DNA of 20,311 bases from a virus: IMG/VR virus record IMGVR_UViG_3300036850_000249, positions 1 to 20,311 of that record. One strand, given 5' to 3'. Positions 10,091-19,305 of this stretch are shown in pieces; the stretch's first letter is position 1, and every line of letters begins with the position of its first letter. The notes under the pieces were generated by a model, which was not told the DNA's origin, made no database searches, and saw only the letters and a list, made by a program, of their open reading frames with translations. The position numbers and the translations under genes are program-made.

Positions 10091-10187
10091 GCGCACCTGC
10101 CCGACCGTCTGCCTGGTCGCGCTCTGGGCCTCGTTCGCTGAGGGGGTCGCGTTGCTGGCGATCGCCGTGGTCTGGATCGTCCGCTGA
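10080..10187 (+). CDS. 35-residue single-span membrane protein
   Basis: 35 residues from GTG 10080, overlapping the previous gene by 11 bases and ending in TGA that shares a base with the next ATG. After a basic head (MARKRTCPTVC) there is one hydrophobic segment, LVALWASFAEGVALLAIAVV, and a short WIVR tail. The longer open frame beginning at 9828 is not credible upstream of this point because it is Ser/Arg-rich shadow sequence. Tiny single-span proteins like this are common partners in phage lysis cassettes, either as holin, antiholin or spanin-like factors; no specific assignment is possible. Confidence 0.45.
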   Translation: MARKRTCPTVCLVALWASFAEGVALLAIAVVWIVR

Positions 10188-10897
10188 TGTTCTGGCGTCT
10201 GCGCGGCGTCGTGCCGACCTGGGTCTACGCGGTATCGCTCGTGCCGCTGATCGTGAGCACCGTGATCTCGTTGTCGCTGGCCGTGAGCGCCCGCACCCAG
10301 GTGCGCCAGGAGGCCGAGCAGCGGGCGGCGCTGGCGCTGGAGGTCGCCCGGTCGAGCCGGCAGGCGACGATGGTGCTGCGCGCCCAGAGCCGGCGGGCCG
10401 ACAACAACACCTGCCGGCTGATCAACGGGCTGGGCCGGGCCATCGCCCAGGCCACCGGCGCCCGCTTCGAGGCGGTGGGTTGCAGGACGTTTCGCCTCAC
10501 GGGGCGGGTGGTGGGCGCCAGCGGCCCCGCCGGCCCCTCCGGCCAGCCGGGCCAGCCGGGCACCCCGGGGCGGCCCGGGCGACCGGGGCGGCGGGGCCCG
10601 CCCGGTCCTCGAGGTCCGATGGGAGCGCCCGGTCCTGCAGGGCCGGCGGGGCCGGCCGGGCAGGAGTCGCTCATCTCCGCCGAGGAACTCGGCCGGCTGC
10701 GCGCCGGCGTGGTCGACGCGGCCGGCCGGCTCGACGTGCTCGAGCGGGTGGCGCTCCGGGCTGGCGATCTCACGGAGCTGCGCCAGCGCATCGAGACGCT
10801 GGAGGAGAACATTCGCAATCTGAACGCCCAGGTCGCGGCGCTCGAAGCAATGGCGGTCGCCGCCGCGCCCACCGCCAGCGCACCGGTGGCGCCGTGA
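10187..10897 (+). CDS. Membrane-anchored collagen-like / coiled-coil protein
   Basis: 236 residues from ATG 10187 (TGATG overlap). Order: a transmembrane segment near residues 11-33 (TWVYAVSLVPLIVSTVISLS then LAV); a helical Arg/Ala/Gln-rich stalk to about 75; a segment with two cysteines (C76, C99); fifteen uninterrupted Gly-X-Y triplets from G113 to about residue 157, rich in Pro and Arg; then a long amphipathic helix to about 225 with LDVLERVALRAGDL and LRQRIETLEENIRNLNAQVA, a likely trimeric coiled coil that could register the collagen triple helix. An Ala/Pro tail ends it. Phage collagen-like proteins are usually fibre parts; here the membrane anchor and place before the endolysin suggest instead an envelope-spanning rod, possibly doing a spanin-like job or decorating the lysogen. 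That role is inference. Confidence 0.75.
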   Translation: MFWRLRGVVPTWVYAVSLVPLIVSTVISLSLAVSARTQVRQEAEQRAALALEVARSSRQATMVLRAQSRRADNNTCRLINGLGRAIAQATGARFEAVGCRTFRLTGRVVGASGPAGPSGQPGQPGTPGRPGRPGRRGPPGPRGPMGAPGPAGPAGPAGQESLISAEELGRLRAGVVDAAGRLDVLERVALRAGDLTELRQRIETLEENIRNLNAQVAALEAMAVAAAPTASAPVAP

Positions 10898-12791: not shown

Positions 12792-12807
12792 TCCGCCCTG
12801 CGGCAAT

Positions 12808-12842
12808 CCCCCGACCGCCGCGAGGCGGCTGCGGGTCGGGGG
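12808..12842. terminator. Large hairpin between convergent operons
   Basis: CCCCCGACC (12808-12816) pairs with GGTCGGGGG (12834-12842), and inside it GCCGC pairs with GCGGC around a GAG loop, leaving a four-base bulge. It ends ten bases from the stop of the minus-strand zinc-ribbon gene, so it can serve both strands as a bidirectional terminator. Confidence 0.65.
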
Positions 12843-12852
12843 GGTGGGCAGC

Positions 12853-13170
12853 CTACTTCTTGAAGAGGCCGGACTGGATGGCGGCGACCTCGGCGAGGAA
12901 GGCGTCGTCGCGGTCCGGGGGCAGGAGAATCCGATCGACCCTGCGGGAGAGGGGCGACTGGACGGGGGGCCCGTAGGGCTCGCCTCCGCGCTTCAGGTTC
13001 TCGCCGCAGCCGTTGCACTTGAGCCGCTTCGGCATCGCGAGGACGCCGACGCCGACGGTCACGACGCCGATCACCTTCGCCTTGCCGGTGCGCTTCGACG
13101 TGAACGAATTACGGGCGCCGCAGACGGGGCAGCGCACATCGCCATTGGCGTCGATCTGCGTGGACTTCAT
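12853..13170 (-). CDS. Zinc-ribbon protein
   Basis: 105 residues from ATG 13170 on the minus strand. Two CxxC pairs, CPVC (C14, C17) and CNGC (C52, C55), frame a zinc ribbon with a conserved centre: NSFTSKRTGKAKVIGVVTVG then VLAMPKRLKCNGCGENLKRG. Between the cysteines is a hydrophobic VIGVVTVGVGVLA stretch that is a feature of this family, small proteins that I have seen in actinobacteria and their prophages. The C-terminus has a helical end (DDAFLAEVAAIQSGLF). No function is established to my knowledge. The gene is on the opposite strand to the late operon, fenced by terminators and driven by the shared element described at 13185-13250, so it behaves as a cargo gene. Confidence 0.75.
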   Translation of the reverse strand: MKSTQIDANGDVRCPVCGARNSFTSKRTGKAKVIGVVTVGVGVLAMPKRLKCNGCGENLKRGGEPYGPPVQSPLSRRVDRILLPPDRDDAFLAEVAAIQSGLFKK

Positions 13171-13184
13171 GTGGAGCTCTTTTC

Positions 13185-13250
13185 GGTCGGGGGAGTAGCA
13201 CCCCCAGTGTCGGGCACGATCCCGTCCGGGCCCATCCCCCAGAAGGGGGG
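13185..13250 (-). promoter_or_regulatory. Shared upstream element of the zinc-ribbon gene
   Basis: On the minus strand this reads CCCCCC-TTCT-GGGGGATGGG, 18 bases, CGACACTG, then CCCCCGACC before the ATG. The same three blocks precede the collagen-like gene, with the same 18-base gap between the first two. The perfect G/C inverted repeat resembles an operator or activator site and CGACACTG may hold the -10 region. Confidence 0.6.
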
Positions 13251-13263
13251 TTGTCGGGACCGT

Positions 13264-13758
13264 CTAGGCGATGAGGCAGATCGCGGTCGTGTGGTGCTCG
13301 TTCGGTACCGCAGTGCGCGACCGGACACCGTTCGATGCGATCCAGACGTCGTTCGGGATCGGGGAGCCGGCCCCGTCCTCCGCGCTACCGCCGATGACCT
13401 TGCCGCCAGCCGGGCAAATCGCCGTGTTGACCGTGACGCCGCTCATCCTGGTCGTCACGTAGACGACGCGGCCTAGGTCGCCAGGGGCGCCCTGCGGCCC
13501 CTGAGGGCCCTGGGGACCCTGCGCCCCCTGCGGCCCCTGCGGCCCGGCCGGCCCCTGCGGGCCCGTGATCGCGTTGGGCACCACACCGCGGGCGAGCTTC
13601 GCCTTCGTGATGGCGCCGTTGGCCAGCTGGCGCGCCGTGATCGTTCCCGGGGCGATCTGGCTGCCCCGGATGAGCTTCGGAGCGGCGATGCCCACGCCGG
13701 AGCCGGCGACGAAGAGGGCGGTGGCGGCGACGATCATGGAGGGGCTCGGACGCTTCAT
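13264..13758 (-). CDS. Secreted collagen-like protein
   Basis: 164 residues from the ATG at 13758; an in-frame ATG at 13767 would add three residues, but the AAGGA motif fits 13758 better. Order: basic head MKRPSPSM, a hydrophobic signal segment IVAATALFVAGSGVGIAA, a region with repeated GTITARQLANGAITKAKLAR, nine Gly-X-Y triplets rich in GPQ (about residues 66-92), and a compact C-terminal domain with two cysteines (AICPAGG near the middle and TAICLIA at the very end) that could form a disulphide. Proteins of this build are abundant in Thermoleophilia genomes and are presumably displayed outside the cell. In a phage it is most simply a cargo (moron) gene altering the surface of the lysogen, possibly taken from a host. 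Confidence 0.8.
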   Translation of the reverse strand: MKRPSPSMIVAATALFVAGSGVGIAAPKLIRGSQIAPGTITARQLANGAITKAKLARGVVPNAITGPQGPAGPQGPQGAQGPQGPQGPQGAPGDLGRVVYVTTRMSGVTVNTAICPAGGKVIGGSAEDGAGSPIPNDVWIASNGVRSRTAVPNEHHTTAICLIA

Positions 13759-13771
13759 GGGGTCCATCCTT

Positions 13772-13832
13772 GGTCGGGGGTTCCCTCAGTGTCGACCACG
13801 AGCGGCCGCGCCCCCATCCCCCGGTTGGGGGG
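13772..13832 (-). promoter_or_regulatory. Shared upstream element of the collagen-like gene
   Basis: On the minus strand: CCCCCC-AACC-GGGGGATGGG, 18 bases, CGACACTG, then CCCCCGACC next to the AAGGA ribosome site. Block order and the 18-base gap are the same as in front of the zinc-ribbon gene, while the sequence between blocks differs, which indicates functional conservation rather than a fresh duplication. Confidence 0.6.
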
Positions 13833-14641: not shown

Positions 14642-14933
14642 CCGGAACAAGGTCGGCGAGGAGCTCGTCGCCGGGCACGTTGAGGACGACGTGGATCATC
14701 GCGAGATGGTCGCCGCGGGGGATCGTGTCGCCACGCTCCCAGCTCTGGACGCTGCTCCTACTGGCGCCGACGAGGAAGCCGAAGCCGTCCTGAGTCAGCT
14801 CCAGATCCTCCCGCCAGCGCTGCACGCGCCGGCCAAAAGCGACGAGGTCCACCGCACCGGAGGCTAGGGCCGGCGAGCCCGCCTGGCGACTCGGTAAGTC
14901 GGGCAACTTGACACGCTCAGATTCCTGAGCCAA
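14526..14933 (-). CDS. XRE-family HTH regulator, minus strand (copy 1)
   Basis: Up to 135 residues if TTG 14933 is the start; GTG 14852 is an alternative that begins just before the DNA-binding domain, frees the divergent promoter and gives an intergenic region (91 bases) like that of the second pair (105 bases). The HTH reads VAFGRRVQRWREDLELTQDG, FGFLVGASRSSVQSWERGDT, then IPRGDHLAMIHVVLNVPGDE, a complete Cro/C1-type domain with the W-E-R-G signature. The C-terminus is Arg/Ala/Glu-rich and probably disordered. As the leftward member of a divergent pair of XRE genes it is a natural candidate for a repressor of the rightward promoter, where the dyad at 14915-14930 lies. Confidence 0.75.
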   Translation of the reverse strand: MAQESERVKLPDLPSRQAGSPALASGAVDLVAFGRRVQRWREDLELTQDGFGFLVGASRSSVQSWERGDTIPRGDHLAMIHVVLNVPGDELLADLVPVSSREEAARLVAAARRHAEHRRKPRARGGDSSRASGEE

Positions 14934-14946
14934 GATCCCGGCCGTG
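14908..14946 (+). promoter_or_regulatory. Leaderless promoter with operator in the spacer (switch 1)
   Basis: TTGACA (14908-14913, perfect -35), 17 bases, CAAGAT (14931-14936), seven bases, then GTG 14944. The spacer contains GCTCAG-ATTC-CTGAGC (14915-14930), a perfect 6-bp inverted repeat, so a bound dimer would block polymerase. No ribosome site precedes the GTG. Confidence 0.65.
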
Positions 14947-15240
14947 TTCCCCGGTCAGCAGATTCGAGCCCGTCGCCGCGCTCTCGGCATGTCCCAGGAG
15001 GAGCTCGCGAGGCGCGCCGGCGTGGGCCGACGCACCGTCATCAACGCGGAGGCCGGCACCCGCCGGACCATCCCGAGCGTCATGCAGGCGCTCGCCGGCG
15101 TGCTCGATCTCGACCTGTCGCAGCTGCATCTCGCCAGAGGTATCGGCAAGGAAGCCCCTGCACGGGTCACCAAAACGGGGGATGCCGGCACGACAGCGGA
15201 CTGCACCTGCGGCCGCTTCATCATCGACGAGGAGGACTGA
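14944..15240 (+). CDS. XRE-family HTH regulator, plus strand (copy 1)
   Basis: 98 residues from GTG 14944, probably leaderless. HTH: QQIRARRRALGMSQEELARR, AGVGRRTVINAEAGTRRTIP, then MQALAGVLDLDLSQLHLARG. It shares this layout with the protein from 17150 (L/I-R-x-RR-x-ALG-x-SQE-x-x-ARR-x-G, RTV, AE-x-G, L-x-L, H-x-A-x-G), so the two are close paralogues. The C-terminal 35 residues differ and contain a CTCGRF pair of cysteines that might hold metal. It probably binds the dyads in this region. The TGA shares a base with the ATG of the following gene, so regulator and DUF6192-like protein form one operon. Confidence 0.8.
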   Translation: MFPGQQIRARRRALGMSQEELARRAGVGRRTVINAEAGTRRTIPSVMQALAGVLDLDLSQLHLARGIGKEAPARVTKTGDAGTTADCTCGRFIIDEED

Positions 15241-17113: not shown

Positions 17114-17152
17114 TTGACGGCCGGCGTCCGGACGTTCTAGTGTCCGGCCATG
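17114..17152 (+). promoter_or_regulatory. Leaderless promoter with palindromic operator (switch 2)
   Basis: TTGACG (17114-17119), 18 bases, TAGTGT (17138-17143), six bases, ATG 17150. CGTCCGGACG (17125-17134), a perfect 10-bp palindrome, sits in the spacer, the same design as in switch 1 although the operator sequence differs. Confidence 0.6.
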
Positions 17153-17404
17153 CCGGCCGACCAGCTCCGCGAACGCCGCGAGGCCCTCGGGCTTTCCCAG
17201 GAGGCCGTCGCCCGCCGGACGGGTCTTTCGGTCCGCACCGTGTTCCGCGCCGAGCAGGGCTTCCCGCTCCGCCAGGAGACGCTCCGCCAGATCGCCGACG
17301 CCTTGGGCCTCCGGGTGCATCTGGTGCTGCACGTCGCTGATGGTGAAGACGATTGCGTCGGCGCGCGTCCCCCGGAAGGGGGATTGTCGGAGGGCGGGGC
17401 GTGA
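17150..17404 (+). CDS. XRE-family HTH regulator, plus strand (copy 2)
   Basis: 84 residues from ATG 17150, with no ribosome site but a promoter placed for a leaderless mRNA. HTH: ADQLRERREALGLSQEAVAR, RTGLSVRTVFRAEQGFPLRQ, then LRQIADALGLRVHLVLHVAD. It is a close paralogue of the 14944 protein. The last 15 codons include a CCCCC-GGAA-GGGGGATTG stretch similar to the cargo-gene element (17369-17386), in the orientation of the next gene. The TGA overlaps the GTG of the HNH-helicase gene (GTGA), so this regulator heads that operon and can report on or limit its expression. Confidence 0.8.
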   Translation: MPADQLRERREALGLSQEAVARRTGLSVRTVFRAEQGFPLRQETLRQIADALGLRVHLVLHVADGEDDCVGARPPEGGLSEGGA

Positions 17405-19305
17405 GCGGTCGCCGATTCAGCGCCAGCGAGAAGGCGGCGCTCTGGGTTGCCGCCGACGGGCGCTGCGAGTCGTGCGGCTCCCCGCTTGAGCCCGGCTGGC
17501 ACGCCGATCACCGGCTGCCCTGGTCCCGTGGCGGGGCAACCGACGTCCTGAATGGCCAGGCGCTCTGCCCGGCCTGCAACCTCCAGAAGGGAAACCGCAT
17601 GGCGCCTGCTCCATCTCCGTGGCCGATCAGCCTCCCGCTCCGCGGCTGGCAGTCGAGCGCGCTCGCGCAGGTCCTGTCCCGGTTCAGCGCCGGCGAGCGC
17701 GACTTCCTCACGGTCGCGGCGCCCGCGGCCGGCAAGACGCGGTTCGCCGCCAGGGTGGCGCACGAGCTCCTGCGCAGCGGCGCGATCGAGCGCGTGGTCG
17801 TGGTCGTCCCGACGGAGCCGCTCAAGACGCAGTGGGCGCGGGCAGTGACGCCCGCCGGCATCCACCTCAACCCCAGGCTGGCGAACGCCCACGGCCAGGA
17901 GGTTGCCGCGACCTACCACGGCGCCGTCGTGACCTACGCGCAGGTCGCGAGCGAGGCTGCCGTCCACCGCATCGGCTGCCGCCGCCCGACGCTCGCCGTG
18001 TTCGACGAGATCCACCACGCCGGCGACGAGCGCTCATGGGGCGGTGCCGCGGCCCACGCCTTCGACGGCGCGGCCTACCGGCTCCAGCTCTCCGGCACGC
18101 CGTTCCGCACGGACGGCACCTCCATCCCCTTCGTCAGCGGCGCCGACGGCCGGCTCCGGATCGACTTCGCCTACACCTACGGCGAGGCGATCCGCGACGG
18201 CGTCTGCCGCTCGGTCGTCTTCCCCTCGTGGGAGGGCGAGCTCAACTGGTCGAGCGGTCCCCAGGACTTCGACCGCGTCGCGTTCGGCGACGACCTGCCG
18301 GCGTACGAGCGCGGGCGCCGCCTGCTGGCGGCGATGGAGGTCGGCGGCGGCTGGCTCGAGCCGTACCTGATCGAGGCGAACGCGCACCTCGACCTCCTGC
18401 GCCGGAACGGCGATCCGGGCGCCGGCGGCCTCGTGCTCGCGCGCGACCAGCGCCACGCGGCCGAGATCCAGCGGTTGCTCGGGCAGATCACGGGCGAGCA
18501 GCCGGTGCTCGCCACGAGCGACGTCGAGGGCGCGGCCGATCTGATCTCCGCATTCGCGGGCTCGCGCGAGCGCTGGATCGTGGCAGTGAGGATGGTCAGC
18601 GAGGGCGTCGACATCCCGCGCCTCCGGCTGGCGGTGTTCGCCACCAACACGACCACGGACCTCTTCTTCCGCCAAGCGGTCGGGCGGATCACCCGCTGGA
18701 TGGCCGACGGCCCGGAGGAGCAGTCCGCCTACTTCTACATTCCACGGCTGCCGGAGCTCATCGATCTGGCGAGCAGCATCAAGGGGATGCAGGCCGAGAC
18801 CGCCCAGGCGCTCGAGGATCTCGACCGCGCGGCGCGGGAGCCGCGGGAGCCCGGGCAGGGCCGCCCGTTCGTCAACCGCGGCGGGACCGCGGTCGCCGAC
18901 GACTGGCTCCTCGCCGACGGCGTCCGCGACGCCGCCGCAGTCGCCATCGACGAGATCAGCCGTGCGCAGGCCATCGCCGCCGCCACGGGGCTTCCCGTGC
19001 CGCCCGAACAGATCGCGCTGATCGCGCGCGAGCTGGAGCGCCGCGCCGGCATGGCCGCAGAGGAGGCGGACGAGGCCGCGACGCCCGATCCCCGCCCCGC
19101 CTACCTCATCATCGAGGGGCTGCGGCAGGAGCAGGACCGGCTCGTCCGGCGCTACGCCGGCGCCACGGGCAGCGACTTCAAGGACATCTACGACCTGATC
19201 GCTCGGCGCGTCGGCGCCTACCGCGACGAGGCGACCGAGGAGCATCTGCGGCAGGGCAACGAGTTGATCCGCGAGCTCCTCGCGGAGCGGGGTCGTGGTC
19301 GCTGA
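17401..19305 (+). CDS. HNH nuclease - SF2 helicase fusion
   Basis: 634 residues from GTG 17401 (GTGA overlap). Residues 20-66 are an HNH domain: CESC (C22, C25), HADHRLPWSRGG (H34, D36, H37), then LCPACN (C56, C59, N60) and KGN. Residues about 78-440 form an SF2 helicase of the ResIII/DEAH group: LRGWQSSAL as Q-like motif, Walker A APAAGKT (107-113), motif II DEIHH (202-206), motif III SGTPFRTDG (231-239), a second RecA fold with MVSEGVDIPRL (398-408), and motif VI QAVGRITRW (425-433). All key residues are present. The last 200 residues are helical. It should track or unwind duplex DNA and cut it. It could serve phage recombination and replication initiation, act like a UvsW-type helicase, or attack competing DNA; the sequence cannot choose. 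Confidence 0.85.
   Translation: MSGRRFSASEKAALWVAADGRCESCGSPLEPGWHADHRLPWSRGGATDVLNGQALCPACNLQKGNRMAPAPSPWPISLPLRGWQSSALAQVLSRFSAGERDFLTVAAPAAGKTRFAARVAHELLRSGAIERVVVVVPTEPLKTQWARAVTPAGIHLNPRLANAHGQEVAATYHGAVVTYAQVASEAAVHRIGCRRPTLAVFDEIHHAGDERSWGGAAAHAFDGAAYRLQLSGTPFRTDGTSIPFVSGADGRLRIDFAYTYGEAIRDGVCRSVVFPSWEGELNWSSGPQDFDRVAFGDDLPAYERGRRLLAAMEVGGGWLEPYLIEANAHLDLLRRNGDPGAGGLVLARDQRHAAEIQRLLGQITGEQPVLATSDVEGAADLISAFAGSRERWIVAVRMVSEGVDIPRLRLAVFATNTTTDLFFRQAVGRITRWMADGPEEQSAYFYIPRLPELIDLASSIKGMQAETAQALEDLDRAAREPREPGQGRPFVNRGGTAVADDWLLADGVRDAAAVAIDEISRAQAIAAATGLPVPPEQIALIARELERRAGMAAEEADEAATPDPRPAYLIIEGLRQEQDRLVRRYAGATGSDFKDIYDLIARRVGAYRDEATEEHLRQGNELIRELLAERGRGR

Follow-up and report, generated by a model that had tools for sequence, protein, structure and literature searches.

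A compound, precisely spaced upstream element shared by two reverse-strand cargo genes of a phage fragment

Two otherwise unrelated genes on the reverse strand of a phage fragment, one encoding a zinc-ribbon protein and the other a collagen-like protein, are each preceded by a copy of the same long cis element, (A)CCCCCC-N4-GGGGGATGGG-N11-TCGTG-N2-CGACACTG-N-GGG, which stands on the minus strand, some 25-80 bases ahead of both cargo start codons. The element is probably regulatory for both genes, and we give about an even chance to the reading that it forms a promoter and operator region common to the two. From its layout we infer transcription from a -10 box within the downstream block and a regulator, of either sign, acting at the inverted repeat. 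If confirmed, a single dedicated and tightly spaced switch would run unrelated reverse-strand cargo genes of one phage, and the element could serve as bait for its regulator.

Architecture and setting of the element

The phage fragment is an IMG/VR virus record of 20,311 bases with 70% GC, the whole of which was analysed and is termed the window here. Its structural genes run rightward and include those for the major head protein, the tape measure and endolysin-like proteins, while the two leftward genes have the lysis genes on one side and a region of helix-turn-helix (HTH) regulators on the other; several XRE-type HTH proteins are encoded within the fragment. A strong hairpin (CCCCCGACC...GGTCGGGGG, Table 1) separates the convergent lysis genes from the zinc-ribbon gene and is likely a terminator, though it has no good U-tract. 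The collagen-like protein would comprise 167 aa instead of 164 aa if begun at the upstream ATG at 13767.

Table 1. Coordinates of the shared element, the cargo genes and associated features in the window
Feature	Position	Strand	Remarks
Hairpin (CCCCCGACC...GGTCGGGGG)	12805..12845	.	strong; between convergent lysis genes and zinc-ribbon gene
Cargo gene 1, zinc-ribbon protein	12853..13170	-	105 aa; CxxC...CxxC, hydrophobic stretch
CCCCCGACC, zinc-ribbon copy	13185..13193	-	14 bases before ATG
Copy 1, downstream block TCGTG-CC-CGACACTG	13205..13219	-	11 bases after GGGGGATGGG; GGG follows one base on
Copy 1, inverted repeat + GATGGG: CCCCCC-TTCT-GGGGGATGGG	13231..13250	-	upstream of zinc-ribbon gene
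Cargo gene 2, collagen-like protein	13264..13758	-	164 aa from ATG after AAGGA
CCCCCGACC, collagen-like copy	13772..13780	-	13 bases before ATG at 13758
Copy 2, downstream block TCGTG-GT-CGACACTG	13787..13801	-	GGG follows one base on
Copy 2, inverted repeat + GATGGG: CCCCCC-AACC-GGGGGATGGG	13813..13832	-	upstream of collagen-like gene
Third dyad CCCCC-GGAA-GGGGG	17369..17382	+	inside small XRE gene end; weaker inverted repeat 17364-17387

The first-pass annotation had placed two copies of the element before the two cargo genes, and both are present where it put them, with CGACACTG standing 18 bases after the GGG of each inverted repeat. Both C6-N4-GGGGGATGGG and CGACACTG occur exactly twice in the window, always on the minus strand, the latter at 13205-13212(-) and 13787-13794(-). 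For the former, the window has just one more near match, the weaker inverted repeat at 17364-17387. The two copies are direct, 582 bp apart and placed on either side of the collagen-like gene, and copy 1 lies 13 bases after the stop of that gene. Each occupies a short upstream region and is oriented like the gene that it precedes, at a similar distance from the start codon, with 34 nt between CGACACTG and the ATG of the zinc-ribbon gene vs 28 nt for the collagen-like gene. The 18-base gap, which had been described as differing in sequence between the copies, is exact in its length but only partly different in its letters, with TCGTG being common to both and the free spacers shrinking to 11 and 2 bases. 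The further block CCCCCGACC had been counted as precisely spaced as well, which does not hold, as it lies 11 bases from CGACACTG in one copy vs 6 bases in the other and tracks the start codon. Since the window holds five occurrences of this 9-mer, of which two fall inside the terminator-like hairpin, it has been left out of the element, to which its claim is weak.

The zinc-ribbon protein is weakly related to gp16 of Gordonia phage Madeline (L157 3001-3609), a protein with extra membrane segments whose gene adjoins the tape measure gene and runs opposite to the structural operon; the element is absent from this related gene. No homologues of the zinc-ribbon protein have been found among the viral contigs. 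The N-terminus of the collagen-like protein has matched one weak locus there, over 24 residues, and nothing in phages or plasmids, and a query with the lysis protein, made in search of neighbouring cargo regions, has returned no relatives. The window also encodes a second, rightward collagen-like protein at 10187-10897 (+), and a similar rightward collagen-like gene is found in G017 (L072 6831-7472); this relative has been set aside as a different gene, rightward and without the element.

Chance versus constraint

When the two upstream regions are aligned locally with no gaps allowed, the match extends over 51 bases, 37 of which are identical, and scores 23; 1000 dinucleotide-shuffled pairs average 9.4 (sd 1.4) and score 18 at most. 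Upon scoring of the two blocks together, each copy attains 31/31, while the best non-self site in the window reaches 22 and shuffled sequences 20-22. The element is not a chance pair. Within it, the block positions agree in 33/33 cases and the N positions in 4/18, the latter being near the 0.29 expected for the composition. Because the blocks were drawn up from these very copies, clustering is judged fairly by a runs test along the alignment, which finds the matched positions clustered (P = 0.028). The earlier proposal of a compound, precisely spaced cis element before both cargo genes is borne out by these values, and the pattern fits free spacers between conserved blocks better than it fits a duplication of recent date.

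Promoter, operator and competing readings

The position of the element, with CGACACTG 28 and 34 nt from the two start codons, suits a promoter. The hexamer GACACT inside this block is a candidate -10 box, in which A at 2 and T at 6, the strongest two positions of such a box, are retained. Only G-rich hexamers, and none like TTGACA, lie 15-20 bp upstream of GACACT; likewise, a consensus scan has returned no sigma-70 promoter in the region, with no TTGACA-like -35 at 16-18 bp. As no TTGACA stands beside GACACT, activator-dependent initiation is the leading guess. One may postulate a dimeric DNA-binding protein on the C5/6-N4-G5 dyad, whose centre lies 31 bp, or about three helical turns, upstream of GACACT and which would therefore come to stand near -43, about the position of a class II activator. 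Initiation would then depend on the dyad-binding protein and proceed without a TTGACA-like hexamer, transcripts would begin some 20-30 nt before each ATG and outside the rightward structural operon, and both cargo genes would be expressed together. The number of copies, which is just two, and the lack of comparative support count against such a promoter and operator, and with about 33 fixed bases the element is longer than one would expect of a simple activator promoter.

Phage morons and other lysogenically expressed cargo have a promoter of their own, as is the case for reverse-strand genes of actinobacteriophages, and morons are often expressed together. The cargo described here resembles them in consisting of small genes that run opposite to the structural operon, lie between lysis genes and regulatory region with a hairpin as boundary, and each have an upstream control region of their own. 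It differs from them in that one long compound element is common to two unrelated genes and that a recognisable sigma-70 promoter is missing.

The main rival to an activator-dependent promoter is a phage repressor operator, which we regard as possible but clearly less probable. An XRE-type phage repressor would bind the C5-N4-G5 dyad and thereby keep the cargo silent or set its timing; the helicase gene close to a third such dyad might come under the same control. Several XRE/HTH genes of the fragment could supply this protein, and the third dyad lies 18 bases before the GTG start of the HNH-helicase gene (17401). It is suggestive because shuffled sequences are expected to contain 0.1 C5-N4-G5 dyads per window, in which three are observed. 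However, the third dyad lies within a coding region, no downstream block accompanies it, and it probably falls outside the element; moreover, one XRE gene has a TTGACA promoter dyad of its own (TTGACACGCTCAGATTCCTGAGCCAAGAT, 14908), which is the likelier operator, and a repressor alone leaves the conserved TCGTG-N2-CGACACTG unexplained. The third dyad has a plus-strand flank (GGAAGGGGGATTGTCGG) that closely resembles copy 1 as read on that strand (AGAAGGGGGGTTGTCGG).

Two promoter-like sites stand before XRE genes. A good sigma-70-like promoter, TTGACA-N17-CAAGAT, stands at 14908-14936 (+) directly before the XRE gene at 14944-15240, and its spacer holds the dyad CTCAG-ATTC-CTGAG, which looks like a phage repressor operator. 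A second site, TTGACG-N18-TAGTGT with inverted repeats (GGCCGGCGTCCGGAC ... GTCCGGCC), is located at 17114-17150 (+). The small XRE gene that it precedes (17150-17404) shares its last four bases with the start of the HNH-helicase gene (17401-19305 (+)), which encodes one phage protein in which an HNH endonuclease domain is fused to a ResIII/DEAD-type helicase.

It is improbable that the element is an ECF-like host sigma promoter, with GGGGAT as -35, 15 bases of spacer and CGTG as -10, by which the cargo would join a stress regulon of the host. Both copies carry an identical GGGGAT-N15-CGTG, which bears a loose likeness to the promoters of actinobacterial SigH and SigE, which follow GGAAT/C, 17-19 bases and (c)GTT (PMC10012870); a GG-rich -35-like motif, a CGT -10-like motif and a short distance between them are shared with SigH/SigR and SigE promoters. 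However, the spacer is at least 2 bases shorter than in GGAAC-N17-18-cGTT or GGAAT-N18-19-GTT (PMC10012870), and neither the AA of GGAA nor the last T of GTT is retained, CGTG standing in place of CGTT. In addition, the C6 arm and CGACACTG would be left unexplained, and no such compound element has emerged from bacteria in the genome scan described below; the SigH/SigE assignment has been rejected.

Slightly less credit still is given to an element acting at the level of RNA or of transcript ends, in which the C6-N4-G5 hairpin would end or buffer read-through ahead of each gene, with an mRNA leader hairpin before the ribosome site. Copy 1 does lie 13 bases past the collagen-like stop, and a C5-loop-G5 hairpin folds in both copies. 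Yet the U-tract that follows the GC hairpin of an intrinsic terminator at the end of a gene is absent, the fold energies are about those of shuffled sequences (z -0.30 and -0.11), the leader folds are unlike between the copies, and no Rfam family reaches its gathering score. On the minus strand upstream of copy 2 there is no convincing gene, and so a role as terminator of an earlier gene falls away for this copy.

A similarly small probability is assigned to a more novel reading, by which a class of regulator or sigma factor not yet described, from a poorly sampled actinobacterial lineage, would bind the element and initiate transcription there; if true, the phage could match the expression of its surface-related and zinc-ribbon cargo to a state of its host. 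Least credible is a mere duplication remnant, by which the upstream region would have been copied on acquisition of the second cargo gene with no special regulator involved, as the direct arrangement on either side of the collagen-like gene might suggest, since differences are confined to the spacers, matches are clustered and both flanks and genes are unrelated, although an origin by copying may be compatible with function.

Besides sigma-70, terminator and RNA-leader readings, which have been compared with the element and not adopted, two known site types have been considered. Type 2 operators of CsoR/RcnR/FrmR consist of two G/C tracts 2-4 bases apart that form a dyad, and CsoR binding needs a TAC/GTA dyad outside these tracts (PMC3902906). 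The element shares the G/C-tract dyad, but the TAC/GTA flanks are missing in both copies and this assignment has been rejected; no CsoR-family gene (PF02583) is present within the fragment. GACAC is the WhiA motif in Streptomyces (PMC3781837) and occurs within both CGACACTG blocks, but a motif of 5 bases turns up often by chance and leaves the dyad of the element unexplained, and this reading has likewise not been adopted.

Searches for further copies

The first-pass annotation had gone on to propose that the cargo belongs to a host regulon, to be recognised by copies of the element in Thermoleophilia genomes. We scanned one genome per species, covering 84,980 bacterial and archaeal species, with one relaxed pattern, C4-N6-GGGGATNGG-N17-19-CGACACT, applied to all species together; it would miss less similar variants. 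It has yielded a single match, in a Methanomicrobiales MAG. Three pattern scans of 2.9 million viral contigs have returned no copy of the compound element, and blastn with each copy has found nothing in 50,697 phage records. Nor is there a good match in 18 records related by head protein or helicase. As no copy has been found in the searched bacteria or other viruses, the idea of a host network is unsupported. What stands of the original interpretation is a shared cis element in a position that suits a promoter; at present it amounts to two isolated but well-supported sites, and nothing points to a wider network.

Partial patterns have given viral matches that were all rejected. GGGGATGGG-N15-21-CGACACT is found in 39 stretches, none of them with an upstream C-run, and is judged to match by chance; C5-N4-GGGGGATGGG occurs in 73 stretches, none with the downstream block, and TCGTG-N2-CGACACTG-N-GGG in 11, with the dyad upstream in none. 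Five viral contigs (L105, L112, L131, L134, L139) have in common a long stretch, C5-N4-G5ATGGGGGGA(A/T)TCTTTTCTGACGGTTGAATCTGACGG, that is conserved except for its variable N4; it contains a dyad of the same type but is an element unrelated to the one described here.
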